From IMG/VR virus record IMGVR_UViG_3300005536_000083, positions 1-22,412 of that record: a stretch of DNA of 22,412 bases. One strand, written 5' to 3'. The notes beneath the pieces were generated by a model. It was not told the DNA's origin and did not search any database. It worked only from the letters and a program-made list of their open reading frames with translations. Positions 16,899-22,412 of this stretch are shown piece after piece. The translations under genes were made by a program, and so were the position numbers. Every line of letters starts with the position of its first letter. Within the stretch, counting starts at the first letter, position 1. Origin of the DNA: a virus.

Positions 16899-17231
16899 AT
16901 GAGCACTGAACCCGACCCGCTCTGGGTGGAACTCGGCCGCCCCGACGACTGGAACCCGAAGGTCAAACGCGCCCTCGAACTCATCCGCGCGATCTACGAG
17001 TACGAGCCCGTCGGCGGGCCCATGCACGTCGAGCTCGACGACTGGAACATCCAAGGCGAGATCACGCCGTATCCGTACACACCGTCGATGTACGTCGAGG
17101 AAGACGAGGCTGAGCAGGTACGCACGGCCGTCGCGGAGCTGATTCCGCTGCTCAACTCGATGACGCTGAACGAGCGCGCGTCCGCTCTCGCGCGCCATTG
17201 GGGCTACCTGCCGACCGCCACCGAGGCGTGA
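16899..17231 (+). CDS. Unknown acidic protein, 110 residues
   Basis: I do not recognise this protein. It is acidic and rich in Trp, Tyr and Pro: DPLWVELGRPDDWNPKVKRALELIRAIYEYEP, then MHVELDDWNIQGEITPYPYTPSMYVEED, ending in a helix (NERASALARHWGYLPTATEA). GAGG lies only about 2 bases before the ATG, so ribosome binding may be poor or the transcript may start close to the ATG. It is the first gene after the collagen-like gene and the last on this strand before a minus-strand gene. It ends 10 bases from that gene's stop, so the two converge. Confidence 0.6.
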   Translation: MSTEPDPLWVELGRPDDWNPKVKRALELIRAIYEYEPVGGPMHVELDDWNIQGEITPYPYTPSMYVEEDEAEQVRTAVAELIPLLNSMTLNERASALARHWGYLPTATEA

Positions 17232-17241
17232 CGTCGCGCGT

Positions 17242-17421
17242 CTACGCGGCTTCGACGATCTCGGCACGTACCGCAGCTGCCCACTCCATATACAGCCGCT
17301 CCAACGCCGCACGCCCCTCCGCCGTAAGACGCACCCGCGGATCCCTCCACAGACGGCGAATGTCCTCGTTCACGGCCGCAGGCGAGCGCACGGAACCAGG
17401 GCTCACGAGGTCGGGGATCAT
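17242..17421 (-). CDS. Small unknown protein, 59 residues, minus strand
   Basis: Reading leftwards from the ATG at 17421, the frame is open to TAG at 17242-17244 and encodes 59 residues. A long helical part runs from NEDIRRLWRDPRVRLTAEG through ALERLYMEWAAAVRAEIVEAA. The composition (third-position G/C, Ala/Arg/Glu-rich amphipathic helices) looks coding. There is no ribosome binding site; instead TAGACT sits 6 bases before the ATG, a spacing expected for the -10 box of a leaderless transcript, which is common in Streptomyces. It lies back to back with the large regulator gene. The function is unknown; it could be a small DNA- or protein-binding partner. Confidence 0.5.
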   Translation of the reverse strand: MIPDLVSPGSVRSPAAVNEDIRRLWRDPRVRLTAEGRAALERLYMEWAAAVRAEIVEAA

Positions 17422-17551
17422 GCGACAAGTCTATCGACCCGGGGCCCCGCTTCACTCATGCCGGTCACCGGCAACCCCAAGCCCTCACACGAAAATGGCC
17501 TCGCCCCATACCCTGACAGTGACGAGCTGTACAGAGTGGAGGGGCGAGACC
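17422..17551. promoter_or_regulatory. Divergent regulatory region between the 59-residue gene and the Xre-type regulator
   Basis: Several symmetrical elements lie in this 130-base gap: CGGGGCCCCG at 17440-17449, GCCGGT-C-ACCGGC at 17460-17472, CTGTACAG at 17527-17534, and the pair CTCGCCCC (17500-17507) / GGGGCGAG (17541-17548). The right arm of that pair lies in the ribosome binding site of the regulator. On the minus strand TAGACT is a candidate -10 box. Two promoters with autoregulation are likely, but no start site can be fixed. Confidence 0.4.
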
Positions 17552-18802
17552 GTGCCATCTGATGCTACCCCGGACCCATACGCCGACCCCCTGGTCTTCG
17601 GCCAACGACTCCAGATCCTCCGAACGCGCAAGGGCCTGACCCGCGACCAACTCGGAGGCCTCGCAGGCCGCTCCGGATCCTGGGTCAAGGGCATCGAGAC
17701 CGGTCGGCTGAAAACGCCGAGGCTCGAAGTGATTCTCCGCCTCGCCGAAATCCTCCGGGTGCGGGACCTGTCCGACCTCACTGGGGACCAGTCCGTGCAC
17801 GTCGACCTGTTCACCGGCCCCGGCCACCCCCGCCTCCCCGAGGTCAAAGCCGCAGTCGACGCCTTCCCTCTCACCGCACGACGCGAGGCCCCGCCTGCCG
17901 CACACCTACGCGCCCGACTCGCCCGCGCATGGACCGCCCGCCACTCAGCCCCCAACCATCGCGAGGTCATCGGCGAGCTGCTGCCCGGCCTGATCCGTGA
18001 TGCACAGGCCGCCGTCCGCCAGGCCGACACCAGCTCGGACCGCCGTACCGCGCACGCCGTCCTCGCCGAGGTGTATTCCCTCGCACAGTTCTTCTGCGCC
18101 TACCAGCCCGACCCCGCACTGCTGTGGCGCGTCGCTGACCGCGGACTGATCGCCGCCCAGGAGTCCGAGGACCCGCACGCCATCGGTATCGCCGCATGGC
18201 TGGCCGCGCAGGCGCACCGCGACTCCGGGCCGACGCACTTCGATGCCGCGGACGCGGTGAACTTGGAGACCCTCGCGTTCCTGGAACCGCTTCTGCCTGA
18301 CGCCGACGATGACGTCCTGGCCGTCACCGGCGCCCTCACCTTCGAGGCCGGGTACACGGCGGCCCGGCGCGGCGAGACGGGCACAGCGTGGCGGTACTGG
18401 GACCAGGCCCGGGGGATGGCCGACCGGCTGCCCGCGGACTACTACCACCCGGTCACGAGCTTCTCCCGCGCCATCATGGGCGCGCACGCGGTGACGATCG
18501 CGGTCGAGCTGCACCAGGGCGGGGAGTCGGTGCGGCAGGCCGCGGCTGCGGACGCGGTCACGATTCCGTCCCGGCCTCGCCGGGCGCGGCACCGGATTGA
18601 GGAGGCCCGCGGCTACCAGTTGGACGGGCAACCGGACGTGGCGTTGGCGACGTTGAACCAGGCGCACGAGGCCGCGCCGGAGACGATCCGCTACAACGGG
18701 TACGCGAAGCGGATCGTGCTGGAGGAGACCGAGGCGAAGAGCCCGGCCCGAAGGCGGCGTGCGTCTGAGTTGGCGGTGAAGCTGGGGCTGCTCGCTGCGT
18801 GA
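17552..18802 (+). CDS. Xre-family transcription regulator with long helical C-terminal domain
   Basis: This 416-residue regulator has an N-terminal helix-turn-helix at about 17-72 (GQRLQILRTRKGLTRDQLGGLAG, then SWVKGIETGRLKTPRLEVILRLAEIL). After a linker (FTGPGHPRLPEVKAAVDAFPL), about 300 residues of paired helices resemble TPR-type repeats, as in many Streptomyces regulators that sense a small molecule or peptide. GGAGGGG precedes the GTG by about 8 bases. Upstream in-frame codons, including ATG 17495, have no ribosome binding site. It is far larger than usual phage repressors, and a DUF6415-like gene follows, as in chromosomal Streptomyces clusters. The ligand and targets are unknown. Confidence 0.75.
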   Translation: MPSDATPDPYADPLVFGQRLQILRTRKGLTRDQLGGLAGRSGSWVKGIETGRLKTPRLEVILRLAEILRVRDLSDLTGDQSVHVDLFTGPGHPRLPEVKAAVDAFPLTARREAPPAAHLRARLARAWTARHSAPNHREVIGELLPGLIRDAQAAVRQADTSSDRRTAHAVLAEVYSLAQFFCAYQPDPALLWRVADRGLIAAQESEDPHAIGIAAWLAAQAHRDSGPTHFDAADAVNLETLAFLEPLLPDADDDVLAVTGALTFEAGYTAARRGETGTAWRYWDQARGMADRLPADYYHPVTSFSRAIMGAHAVTIAVELHQGGESVRQAAAADAVTIPSRPRRARHRIEEARGYQLDGQPDVALATLNQAHEAAPETIRYNGYAKRIVLEETEAKSPARRRRASELAVKLGLLAA

Positions 18803-18895
18803 GCGATGGGGTACAGATTGTGCCCCTGCCGCTACGCGGACGCTTCTACGGTCACTGGTGTGAGACGGATCACCGTGACCGTGGAGGCGTAACTG

Positions 18896-19291
18896 ATGGC
18901 GCGTACAGCCCGACCGAACCCTGTGGCATTACAGGATCCGCGGCCGCCGGACATCACGACCATGCGCGCCACCGCGCAGCGTCTCCTCGCCTACAACGCC
19001 GAGCAGCCGGCCGCTGAGGAAGCGGAGGCGCTCCTCGCTCTGATGCGCGGACAGATCGAACTCCTCATCCCCGAGGTGCAGGCGCGCACGGAACGCCTCC
19101 CCGAGGACGACGTCCCCCGCTTCTGCGCGCTCGCCTGCATCGGCGAGGCCCGCGGGAAACTGTCCGTCACCCCGAAGCCGGGCGTGGACCGGGCGGTGGC
19201 GTATGGGCGCCGACTGGCCCGCGTGCTGAACGCGCTGTGCGACCACTACGAGAACCTCGCGCCAGGCCAGGCGACGCATGCACAGTCCTGA
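18896..19291 (+). CDS. DUF6415-like small protein
   Basis: This 131-residue protein is helical throughout: TTMRATAQRLLAYNAEQPAAEEAEALLALMRGQIELLIPEVQ, then a middle with CALACIGEARGKL and the ending RLARVLNALCDHYENLAPG. The ending and the IELLIPEV stretch match my memory of the DUF6415 family, small Streptomyces proteins usually near Xre-type regulators and sometimes annotated with natural product clusters. Their biochemical role is not known. GGAGG at 18882-18886 precedes the ATG. A 72-residue frame at 18799-19017 in another phase was judged a shadow. The gene overlaps the next by 14 bases. The family name is from pattern recall. Confidence 0.6.
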   Translation: MARTARPNPVALQDPRPPDITTMRATAQRLLAYNAEQPAAEEAEALLALMRGQIELLIPEVQARTERLPEDDVPRFCALACIGEARGKLSVTPKPGVDRAVAYGRRLARVLNALCDHYENLAPGQATHAQS

Positions 19292-19595
19292 GCTGCCTGT
19301 TCCGCCTTCATTCATGTGGACCTGCCAGCGCTGCGCCGAGCTCCTCGTCAAACTCGCCGAAGCGTTCACCGCGTCCGCCCACCACGACCTGGGCGACGGC
19401 GCGCTCCGCCACCAGATCACGCTGGCCACCCACATCTCTGGCGACCACCGCGACGAGATTCCCCCGGCGCATGCGGACTGCCGACTCTGCGAGTTCTACC
19501 AGAGGCAGGCGGACAGCCAGGGCTTCGACGACCTGTGGGCAGAGCACCGTGCGCGGGATCTCTTCCTCCCACCGTCTGTTGCCCGTCTTCTGTGA
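19278..19595 (+). CDS. Small protein with two CxxC motifs
   Basis: This 105-residue protein has CQRC near residues 16-19 and CRLC near 69-72, spaced like a zinc-binding knuckle pair. Helices lie between and after them (AELLVKLAEAFTASAHHDLG, then FDDLWAEHRARDLFLP). ATG 19278 overlaps the DUF6415-like gene by 14 bases. A second ATG at 19314, just before the first CxxC, is an alternative start. Bacterial proteins of this type often bind zinc and act in protein-protein contacts, but no function can be assigned. It is apparently co-transcribed with its upstream neighbours. Confidence 0.55.
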   Translation: MHSPELPVPPSFMWTCQRCAELLVKLAEAFTASAHHDLGDGALRHQITLATHISGDHRDEIPPAHADCRLCEFYQRQADSQGFDDLWAEHRARDLFLPPSVARLL

Positions 19596-19629
19596 CCTCT
19601 CACCCCGCCCCGCCCCCCGGAGGGAACAC

Positions 19630-19809
19630 GTGACCCCGACCGTCGAACGCAGCTCCGACGCGACCCGCGAGGAGCAGGCCTCCCTCACCGTCGGCCGCGC
19701 CGCCGGCTACTGCTGGGTGCGGAACCCGAGCGCGCGTGGCCGGTGCACCTGGCCCCCGAACCACACCGGCAAGCACAAAGACCACTACGCGCACACCGAG
19801 TGGTTGTAG
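19630..19809 (+). CDS. Small Cys/His-containing protein, 59 residues
   Basis: This 59-residue protein starts at GTG 19630 after CGGAGGGA. Its second half carries YCWVRN then GRCTWPPNHTGKHKDHYAHTEW, a C-x-C-x-H-x-H type pattern that recurs in small Streptomyces proteins of unknown function and could bind a metal. A long frame extending upstream lies inside the neighbouring genes and was discounted. It is the last gene of the accessory run before strong terminator hairpins and the converging repressor-like gene. Confidence 0.55.
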   Translation: MTPTVERSSDATREEQASLTVGRAAGYCWVRNPSARGRCTWPPNHTGKHKDHYAHTEWL

Positions 19810-19931: not shown

Positions 19932-20165
19932 TCAGCGGACAAGGTCGGCGAGCGGCACGCCGACGGCTTCGGCGAGAAGTAGGAGATCCTCCAGGTTCGG
20001 TGCGCGCTGCGCGTACTCCCACCGGTGAATCGTGCGGTGGTCGCGGCCGATCCGCTGACCCAACTCCAACTGGGTCAGGTTGGCGTGGATGCGGGCGGCG
20101 CGAAGACGTTCCCCGATCTGCCGGCGTCGGGCGGGGACCCAGTCGGGCATCGGATCGAGAGGCAC
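19932..20165 (-). CDS. Small Xre-family repressor-like protein
   Basis: This 77-residue protein is almost entirely one helix-turn-helix domain (about 17-73): IGERLRAARIHANLTQLELGQRIG, then RDHRTIHRWEYAQRAPNLEDLLLLAEAVGVPLADLV. The size fits a Cro-like or single-domain repressor. It starts at GTG 20165, or at an ATG five codons later (20150). Neither has a clear ribosome binding site, so translation may be weak. A perfect 18-bp inverted repeat lies 34 bases upstream and is a natural operator for it. Position near attP and int suggests the lysogeny switch, but a host-type regulator cannot be excluded. Confidence 0.75.
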   Translation of the reverse strand: MPLDPMPDWVPARRRQIGERLRAARIHANLTQLELGQRIGRDHRTIHRWEYAQRAPNLEDLLLLAEAVGVPLADLVR

Positions 20166-20671: not shown

Positions 20672-20698
20672 TCAACCCTCTGACCTGCTACGCAGCCT

Positions 20699-20743
20699 GT
20701 GCCCCCGGCAGGATTCGAACCTGCGACACCCGCTTTAGGAGAA
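20699..20743 (-). other. attP core: 3' half of tRNA-Arg(CCU)
   Basis: On the minus strand the sequence runs from the anticodon loop CTCCTAA (anticodon CCU, 20739-20737) through AGCGG, a 5-base variable loop, the T arm GCAGG-TTCGAAT-CCTGC, the acceptor strand CGGGGGC and discriminator A (20700). The 5' side of the anticodon stem is not matched (GTTTT instead of CCGCT), so the gene is truncated there. This is the usual form of an attP core: recombination with the host tRNA-Arg(CCU) gene would restore a full tRNA. There is no CCA. Exact crossover limits are uncertain by a few bases. Confidence 0.75.
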
Positions 20744-20890: not shown

Positions 20891-22174
20891 CTACACCGCC
20901 CTCAGCGTTCGAACACCCTCGGTCTCTGGAGCCATCCGAGCCCGGACCTGAGCGGCCACATCCTCGGGCGCATGCTGATAGATCCACGTGACCTTAGACC
21001 CTCGCTCATGGCCCATGACCGCCTGTGCATCCTTCTCCGGGACCCCGAGATCCTTCAGCCACGTCGCGAACAGATGCCGTGTGTCGTGGACCCGCGGCCA
21101 CCACTCCATCCGCCCTGTCTCCGGGTTCCTGACCTGCCGGGCAAGGCCCGCTGCCTTGATAGCCGGCACCCATACCCTCCTGAAATTGTGCCGTGTGAGC
21201 GTGCCGCCCTGGGGGCCGCGGAACACCAGCTCGTCGGAGTGCAGGTTGTACGGGTCCTCACCGATCGGCGTGACCGACCGCGGCGGCCGCCACCGATCGA
21301 CCATCGTGCGGACCGCGTCAGCGGCCTGCGGAGTCAGCGGTACCGTCCGGAATCCGGCCGCAGACTTGGGCGCAGGCTTGCGGAACAGCCTGCCCTGGTC
21401 CTCACTGAGCACCTCTTTCACCTTGAAGTGCTGAGCCTCGAGGTCGACGTTTTCCCACCGCAGCGCAGTCACCTCACCCCACCGCAACCCCGTGTGCTCG
21501 ATGAACACCGCAAGCGGCCGGTAGTACAAAGGCAACTGCTCGACGATCAGCGCGAACTGCGCACGCGTCGGCGGCCGCAGGTCGTCGGGATGCTTCTTCG
21601 GAGCCTCGCCAACCTCGAGGTCGGCGGCCGGATTGAACGGGATCCGCTTCCCGTCCTTCACCGCAGCGCGCAACATCTGAGTGAGGAGCTCCTGCACCTT
21701 CTTCCTCGTGTGGTAGCCCGGCACGTCCTTGGTGAGCCACGCCTGAAGCTCGATGTACTCGAGGTCGCACAGCCTCCGGCGCCCCCACTTCGGCTCGATG
21801 TGCACGCGCCAGTTGGACAGCTTCCGATTCCTGGTCGTGACGGCGCGCTCAGGCTGCGCTTCCCACCACAGCTCCCACCATTGGGACAGGGTGATCTCGC
21901 CCCGGCGGGGGTCGGCGTACGTCCGCTTGCGGACGCGGGTCCGTACCTCGTCGAGGAACGCCTCGGCTGCCTTCTTGCCGCCCTCGGCGATGGGGTAGTG
22001 CTTGGCTTTCTGTTTCCCGTCCGGGTCCCGGTAGCGGGCCTGCCATGCGCCGATGCAGTCCCGGCGTCGGCGCCGCTCGCCGTACTTCTCGGGCGGGTAC
22101 TTCTCCATGCAGAGTTGGCATCCGCAGCCCTGCTCTCTCAGCTGGCGCGGGTTGTTGACGGTCCTACGCCCCAT
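20891..22174 (-). CDS. int: Tyrosine site-specific integrase
   Basis: This 427-residue recombinase integrates the phage at the host tRNA-Arg(CCU) gene. Catalytic residues are visible: R231 in TGLRWGEV, K270 in the beta-hairpin (PKSAAGFRTVPL), H363-x-x-R366 in HDTRHLFATWL, H389 in MGHE and nucleophile Y399 in IYQHA. The core-binding domain is about 93-180 and the arm-binding domain about 40-90 (AWQARYRDPDGKQKAKHYP). The first 25 residues carry C17-x-C19-x2-C22, unusual for this position and possibly metal-binding. ATG 22174 lies inside the end of the upstream gene, so the two are translationally coupled. attP lies directly downstream of the stop. Length and target match what I recall for phage VWB integrase. 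Confidence 0.93.
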   Translation of the reverse strand: MGRRTVNNPRQLREQGCGCQLCMEKYPPEKYGERRRRRDCIGAWQARYRDPDGKQKAKHYPIAEGGKKAAEAFLDEVRTRVRKRTYADPRRGEITLSQWWELWWEAQPERAVTTRNRKLSNWRVHIEPKWGRRRLCDLEYIELQAWLTKDVPGYHTRKKVQELLTQMLRAAVKDGKRIPFNPAADLEVGEAPKKHPDDLRPPTRAQFALIVEQLPLYYRPLAVFIEHTGLRWGEVTALRWENVDLEAQHFKVKEVLSEDQGRLFRKPAPKSAAGFRTVPLTPQAADAVRTMVDRWRPPRSVTPIGEDPYNLHSDELVFRGPQGGTLTRHNFRRVWVPAIKAAGLARQVRNPETGRMEWWPRVHDTRHLFATWLKDLGVPEKDAQAVMGHERGSKVTWIYQHAPEDVAAQVRARMAPETEGVRTLRAV

Positions 22175-22412
22175 GCTTCACCACCTGTTCGCTCCTCCGC
22201 TGCTGTGGGATGCGGGGGGTCAGGTCGACCAGTTCCCCGCACCAGCAGACTGCACCCAACTCGGGCTGTTCGACGACGAGTTCAGTGAGGATGGCGCGGA
22301 CGAGCGTCACGGTGTGTGCGGATGGGAGTTGCCCCGGGACCTGGATCACGCGCTCGTCGGCATCAAAGCGCGGAAGGCTGTCAGGCGGAGCAAAGTGGAT
22401 GCGGACGCACAT
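22164..22412 (-). CDS. Small protein encoded upstream of int
   Basis: This frame begins at an ATG on the last bases of the window and encodes 82 residues, ending 11 bases inside the int start. It contains RIHFAPPDSLPRFDADERVIQVPG, then HTVTLVRAILTELVVEQPELGAVCWCGE and a basic end (PQQRRSEQVVKHG). Proteins of this pattern often precede integrase genes in Streptomyces phages and integrated elements. The function is unknown; it is not clearly an excisionase because no winged-helix or HTH pattern stands out. The true start could lie further right, outside the window. Confidence 0.65.
   Translation of the reverse strand: MCVRIHFAPPDSLPRFDADERVIQVPGQLPSAHTVTLVRAILTELVVEQPELGAVCWCGELVDLTPRIPQQRRSEQVVKHGA

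Follow-up and report, generated by a model that had tools for sequence, protein, structure and literature searches.

In Streptomyces venezuelae, the Xre-type regulator of the WhiJ9-iosA-BldB9 system activates an adjoining small gene through intergenic sites, with a leaderless target and many paralogous loci per genome (PMC10294661). The XRE-DUF397 pairs Scr1/Scr2 combine a Streptomyces Xre regulator with a small protein of unknown function encoded behind it, and are positive regulators of antibiotic production (PMC6262351, PMC10364602). Another layer of control is described for gene e (lysozyme) of phage T4, where the ribosome binding site of the read-through RNA is buried in a hairpin, the late promoter lies in the left arm of that hairpin, and RNA started at the promoter is translated (PMC3014915). 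The locus compared here with these systems is an accessory island (16899-19809) of the IMG/VR virus record IMGVR_UViG_3300005536_000083, a 22,412-bp stretch (the window) that comes without a host genome of its own and, judged by gene content, looks like a section of a temperate Streptomyces phage. The island is built around REG (gene C, 17552-18802, + strand), a 416-residue regulator with an Xre HTH and a TPR-like domain, and the small genes that follow it, referred to here as cargo.

REG shares something with each of these systems. As with WhiJ9-iosA-BldB9, an Xre-type regulator would activate an adjoining small gene from an intergenic site, and leaderless targets and many paralogous loci per genome recur; unlike it, REG has a single palindrome at -42 behind its own gene, a TPR-like domain, carriage by phages and a predicted insulating hairpin. 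The gene order of the XRE-DUF397 pairs is also similar, but the searched part of the text on those pairs mentions neither an operator nor a promoter in between, and the partner family differs (no DUF397 match among the island proteins of the window). The cargo promoter is predicted to lie within the left arm of a hairpin over the ribosome binding site, as in T4 gene e; T4, however, uses a late promoter and its own sigma factor, whereas the REG cassette would use an activator-dependent promoter of host type and occurs in prophages and chromosomes. Regulators of the same family (phrog_5823) are carried by the Streptomyces phages OnionKnight, Eastland, Chymera and SF3 in the same slot between lysis genes and integrase, and were previously known as annotation only. 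Finally, the nearest solved HTH to that of REG belongs to C.AhdI, a restriction-modification controller (C) protein. C proteins are small Xre activators that act at, and autoregulate, their own promoters, and they have no TPR domain.

Based on sequence comparison, it is likely that REG and the region behind it constitute a portable, insulated activator-promoter cassette, in which REG activates the promoter that follows it and that promoter is shielded from read-through of the late operon. REG would be a dedicated local activator that binds one palindromic operator just past its own stop codon and, positioned at -42, helps RNA polymerase at a promoter with a -10 but no -35 element. Because operator and promoter travel with REG, any gene dropped behind them would come under REG control, and DUF6415-cysE-cysF would be the cargo of this particular phage. 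A transcript arriving from REG or the late operon would fold and bury the cargo ribosome binding site, while a transcript started at the promoter would lack the left arm and be translatable; the start of REG itself would follow the same insulating design. The compared loci support this reading through a link between operator and recognition helix, a fixed spacing, an absent -35, a covarying repeat and the exchange of cargo.

The protein itself can be described at the level of family and predicted fold. REG matches phrog_5823 over the full profile (E 1.1e-108, residues 16-414 against positions 7-403 of 404), contains Pfam HTH_31 (E 2.4e-13), and has an AlphaFold2 model (pLDDT 90.6) in which an Xre HTH, with residues 42-49 as the recognition helix, precedes an all-alpha TPR-like domain that probably senses a ligand. 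These results agree with the first-pass annotation, made from the sequence alone, which had described a 416-residue Xre regulator with helical repeats. The predicted architecture of N-terminal Xre HTH and C-terminal TPR domain is that of the RRNPP regulators (ComR, PrgX, Rap, AimR), and ComR, PrgX and Rap are among the Foldseek matches to the model, though with weak similarity (TM 0.2-0.4). REG could then be a peptide quorum-sensing switch, with a secreted peptide deciding between lysis and lysogeny. This is quite unlikely, as separate immunity repressors are annotated in OnionKnight and Chymera, the module also occurs in chromosomes and on plasmids without phage, and signal-like small open reading frames beside REG were found in only 4/79 loci, were mutually unrelated and did not recur. 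A signal-peptide gene beside REG was rejected, as none was found.

Relatives of REG were collected from 36 viral contigs, 62 genome contigs, 21 phage records and 22 plasmids, and their genes were called by a codon-usage script and clustered, giving 79 non-redundant loci from phages, prophages and chromosomes. Phage loci have a common layout. Lysis genes come first, often with a collagen-like protein after them and sometimes gene B; REG is next and is separated by ~90-160 bp from one to several small cargo genes, behind which there is usually a small Xre gene and an integrase of the tyrosine or serine type. In 35 of the 79 loci phage genes were not seen nearby. One locus of Streptomyces sulfonofaciens (L106, 5995-9500) holds three consecutive REG-type genes. 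In Actinoplanes species, REG copies that are 79-84% identical occur in L062, L104 and L105; two of these loci (L062 and L105) have class I operators but lack the TACSGT -10.

Directly 3' of the REG stop codon in this collection is a palindrome of 15-23 bp, with one good operator per locus; in the window it lies at 18808-18826 (GGGGTACAGATTGTGCCCC, no strand assigned) and is centred on 18817, equivalent to -42. The 76 loci that could be aligned have 14 half-site forms, and these forms track the REG recognition helix. When the 326 variable columns of REG were ranked by mutual information with the half-site, the top five (residues 47, 53, 32, 43 and 42) all fell within the HTH (chance 3.7e-5). 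The partial rank correlation between operator distance and helix identity was -0.75 with the C-terminal domain held fixed, and -0.14 in the reverse comparison. Individual residues also go with individual bases: residue 43 is S or H with G at base +5 in 62/63 loci, E with A in 6/6 and D with C in 4/5, and K at residue 46 accompanies C at +7 in 68/68. A prospective search of 296 Streptomyces genomes with the operator-spacing-(-10) patterns of three classes returned 11 matches, all of them 6-56 bp behind a REG-type gene. Five came from training loci and six were new, and in five of the six the helix was as expected (GSWVKG in two, SPSWVKQ...GRL in one, like L068, and E at residue 43 in the other two). 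Recognition of the palindrome by REG is thus well supported by comparative evidence.

As a GC-rich inverted repeat directly after a stop codon, the palindrome could also be merely the terminator hairpin of REG, with its link to the helix a product of shared ancestry. This is extremely unlikely. The palindrome has no T run, its distance to the -10 is fixed at 30 bp while its distance from the REG stop varies, discrete operator types follow the recognition-helix residues beyond phylogeny, and an element ahead of the REG gene does not change with those types. A terminator-only palindrome was rejected on the fixed spacing and the link between type and helix.

The spacing places the palindrome within a promoter. 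The centre of the palindrome lies exactly 30 bp from a TACSGT-type -10 in 70/71 loci, compared with 11 to 47 for the interval from REG stop to operator centre, and two loci (the L043 and L110 types) have a spacing of 57 bp but carry a second operator copy 27 bp downstream that restores the 30 bp. In the window, the -10 is TACGGT (18847-18852, + strand), again 30 bp from the operator centre, with a predicted start site near 18859. Four leaderless loci (L078, L088, L094 and L097), in which the cargo ATG follows the -10 by 6 bp as in leaderless Streptomyces genes, fix the start site and therefore put the operator centre at -42. At the cargo promoter, the mean number of matches to a -35 element is 1.37 of 5; random positions give 2.19, and the promoter of REG itself gives 2.48. 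A search for palindrome, spacing and -10 irrespective of operator class, across 2.8 Mb on both strands, found 75 sites behind REG and 2 elsewhere.

An operator centred near -42 before a promoter with a poor -35 is the arrangement of a class II activator, the classic example being lambda CI at PRM, and this geometry together with the absent -35 suggests that REG activates rather than represses. The converse, that REG represses the cargo promoter by covering the -35 region until its TPR-like domain binds a signal, draws on the fact that repression is common among Xre proteins. It appears unlikely: there is no -35 to cover, with matches below random, the operator centre sits exactly at the class II position, and the nearest solved HTH is that of a controller protein. 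Controller proteins of restriction-modification systems activate as well as repress. At the predicted start site, TGTGAGACGGATCACC (18859-18876) has a Crp-type resemblance (TGTGA-N6-TCAC) and is kept in many phage-locus leaders, and its conservation goes beyond the needs of the hairpin, loop included.

The proposed insulation of the activated promoter involves an inverted repeat (18840-18890, + strand), predicted to form a hairpin in read-through RNA. The left arm includes the -10, and the right arm includes the cargo Shine-Dalgarno (GGAGG, 18883-18887, + strand, serving the first cargo gene). This places the promoter in the left arm of a structure predicted to mask the ribosome binding site, as at T4 gene e. 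Across 24 phage-type leaders the arms pair in 85.7% of cells, compared with 37-51% when slid against each other, and the covariation score of the hairpin was reached by 0/500 shuffles. Where only one side has changed, a G-U pair is kept in many cases, which points to a structure at the RNA level. The window's read-through hairpin has a folding energy of -40.7 kcal/mol compared with -7.9 for the promoter-started leader. In the folding comparison of the loci, the probability that the Shine-Dalgarno is unpaired is 0.15 in read-through RNA, 0.47 in promoter-started RNA and 0.24 with a foreign left arm (50/68 lower, p 7e-6). Complementarity of the anti-Shine-Dalgarno arm to the cargo site is 9.64 in native pairs and 8.31 in swapped pairs (standard deviation 0.20). 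Structure prediction and covariation together suggest that read-through RNA would be silenced.

It should be noted that a number of observations count against an activating, insulated cassette. The operator overlaps the polymerase footprint, and a repressor could also sit at -42. Some loci have the operator without a -10 (e.g., L015, L016 and L105), two REG loci (L086 and L102) have no recognisable operator, the left arm of the window's operator is imperfect relative to that of its relatives (GGGGCACA...), and one of the six new loci (L164) has D at residue 43 where E was expected. The ancestry control is mixed and shared phylogeny accounts for part of the operator-helix link: with close relatives allowed, nearest-neighbour prediction of the operator succeeded in 56/76 loci from the C-terminal domain and in 55/76 from the helix, while with relatives above 80% removed the helix gave 44/76 and the C-terminal domain 21/76. 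For the hairpin, the Shine-Dalgarno positions were assigned by rule, the lower accessibility of the site may come partly from the greater length of the read-through RNA, and a long GC-rich hairpin could serve as a terminator instead.

A similar promoter-in-hairpin design is found at the start of REG, with weaker statistics (folding test, arm swap p 0.012). The REG promoter region (17497-17551, + strand) has its -10, TACCCT (17509-17514), within an inverted repeat over the REG ribosome binding site, with arms GGCCTCGCCCC (17497-17507) and GGGGCGAGACC (17541-17551), and phage and chromosomal loci alike keep this repeat ahead of REG. The upstream element (CTGACAGTGWCGARCTGTTCAG) is constant whatever the operator type and is thus not the site read by the helix of REG. 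An operator copy upstream of REG was looked for in the REG loci and none was found, a difference from the C proteins, and autoregulation through the same operator was rejected for this reason. Directly after the REG -10, CTGACAGTGACGAGCTGTACAG (17512-17535) is near-constant in phage and chromosomal loci regardless of helix type and is perhaps a host-factor site. Further upstream is the divergent gene B (divB, 17242-17421, - strand, 59 residues), which is supported by conservation only, its relatives having the same divergent position upstream of REG in ~16 other loci.

The control unit is conserved among these loci while the cargo is exchanged. Cargo in the window begins with gene D (18896-19291, + strand, 131 residues), a true DUF6415 protein (PF19979; 97.9 bits against a cut-off of 27.5, full profile) where only likeness to DUF6415 had been proposed; its model (pLDDT 87.5) has four predicted helices, structure comparison gave no significant PDB match, and a literature search on DUF6415 in Streptomyces found none. 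It is overlapped by gene E (19278-19595, + strand, 105 residues, a cysteine protein with a CxxC motif) and followed by gene F (19630-19809, + strand, a 59-residue cysteine protein), confirming the two small cysteine proteins noted earlier. Gene E is related to gp28 of phages Raleigh and SoJo, with further relatives in L004, L006 and L008, and relatives of gene F occur only in related loci, in the cargo slot of L016, L031 and L101. In Raleigh and SoJo (L051 and L050 between them), the 105-residue cysteine protein stands behind a gene for an HATPase-like protein or a regulator, and behind an HTH regulator that is divergent and of another kind, so that another control unit is attached to the same cargo. 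Cargo in general is variable between loci (median 88 residues, cysteine 3.5% vs 1.5%), DUF6415 is one of several families, and cargo families pair with many operator types.

The small variable partners beside an Xre protein and their mobile distribution might suggest that REG and its cargo work as a toxin-antitoxin or phage-defence pair, a role that has been proposed for the XRE-DUF397 pairs. We consider this decidedly unlikely: cargo and regulator are freely exchanged, unlike obligate pairs, and no PADLOC family was found for the cargo, with generic HTH matches only for the regulators. In S. coelicolor, the tested XRE-DUF397 pairs were themselves reported to regulate antibiotic production and differentiation (PMC6262351, PMC10364602). 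A defence system was rejected, as PADLOC gave no match beyond HTH. The first-pass annotation had also raised superinfection immunity, to which nothing links the module; OnionKnight and Chymera have other genes annotated for that role.

The likeness to Streptomyces chromosomal clusters suggested by that annotation was borne out, as a neighbourhood search of other phages and of chromosomes found DUF6415 behind REG-type genes in both, and REG also occurs on plasmids. DUF6415 is present in 67/101 Streptomyces genomes (~two thirds of those sampled), and an Xre gene lies within three genes of it in 17/33 readable loci (short loci, chosen by score), 9 of the 17 being REG-type, upstream and on the same strand. 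The proposal of a captured host regulatory system for lysogenic conversion stands in part: the position beside attP fits conversion cargo, but the cargo set varies between relatives and the exact gene set of the window is therefore not a fixed system. A cassette for cargo of the lysogenic-conversion type, with a presumed role in the lysogen, is the best reading. Likewise, the island is not wholly undescribed, since REG belongs to an annotated phage family (21 phage records); its regulatory wiring is what seems to be new. The operator, promoter geometry and hairpin of phrog_5823 appear not to be described in the open-access papers found, a provisional novelty.

Work on temperate phages usually takes their accessory genes singly. 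With the control unit conserved and the cargo exchanged, the control unit becomes a handle by which cargo of unknown function, DUF6415 included, can be found and defined. The half-site types and matching helix residues amount to a natural protein-DNA recognition code and a source of candidate orthogonal regulator-promoter pairs for actinomycetes, and a promoter inside a silencing hairpin would, if true, extend the T4 mechanism to prophages and chromosomes. It is possible, and put forward tentatively, that these are mutually orthogonal, plug-and-play cassettes on Streptomyces phages, plasmids and chromosomes: ligand-sensing Xre-TPR activators with private operators could operate several per cell without cross-talk, with mobile elements swapping cargo to manipulate host development or stress response.

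The surroundings of the island are those of a temperate phage. Gene order in the window runs from tail genes through an endolysin, putative holins and a collagen-like tail protein to the island, and then to a small Xre gene on the other strand, the attP core and a tyrosine integrase, which agrees with the placement between lysis and lysogeny modules given at first pass. All six genes of the island were upheld, with coding-type codon usage in each except 17242-17421 (- strand). The flanking accessory gene A (16899-17231, + strand, 110 residues, coding-type codon usage) had no match in Pfam, PHROG, NCBIfam or PADLOC profile searches and no relative in the phage comparison, and is probably unique to this phage and outside the conserved module. 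The attP core (20693-20741) corresponds to the 3' end of a tRNA-Arg gene; over 44 bp it matches the core of actinophage RP3 exactly, and it is similar to that of VWB. Between cargo and attP, the small Xre gene (19932-20165, - strand) is kept in ~40 related loci, neighbourhoods with serine integrases included, and possibly regulates integration or excision. At the end of the window, a small gene (22164-22412, - strand) overlaps the integrase start and matches phrog_22170 (unknown function).

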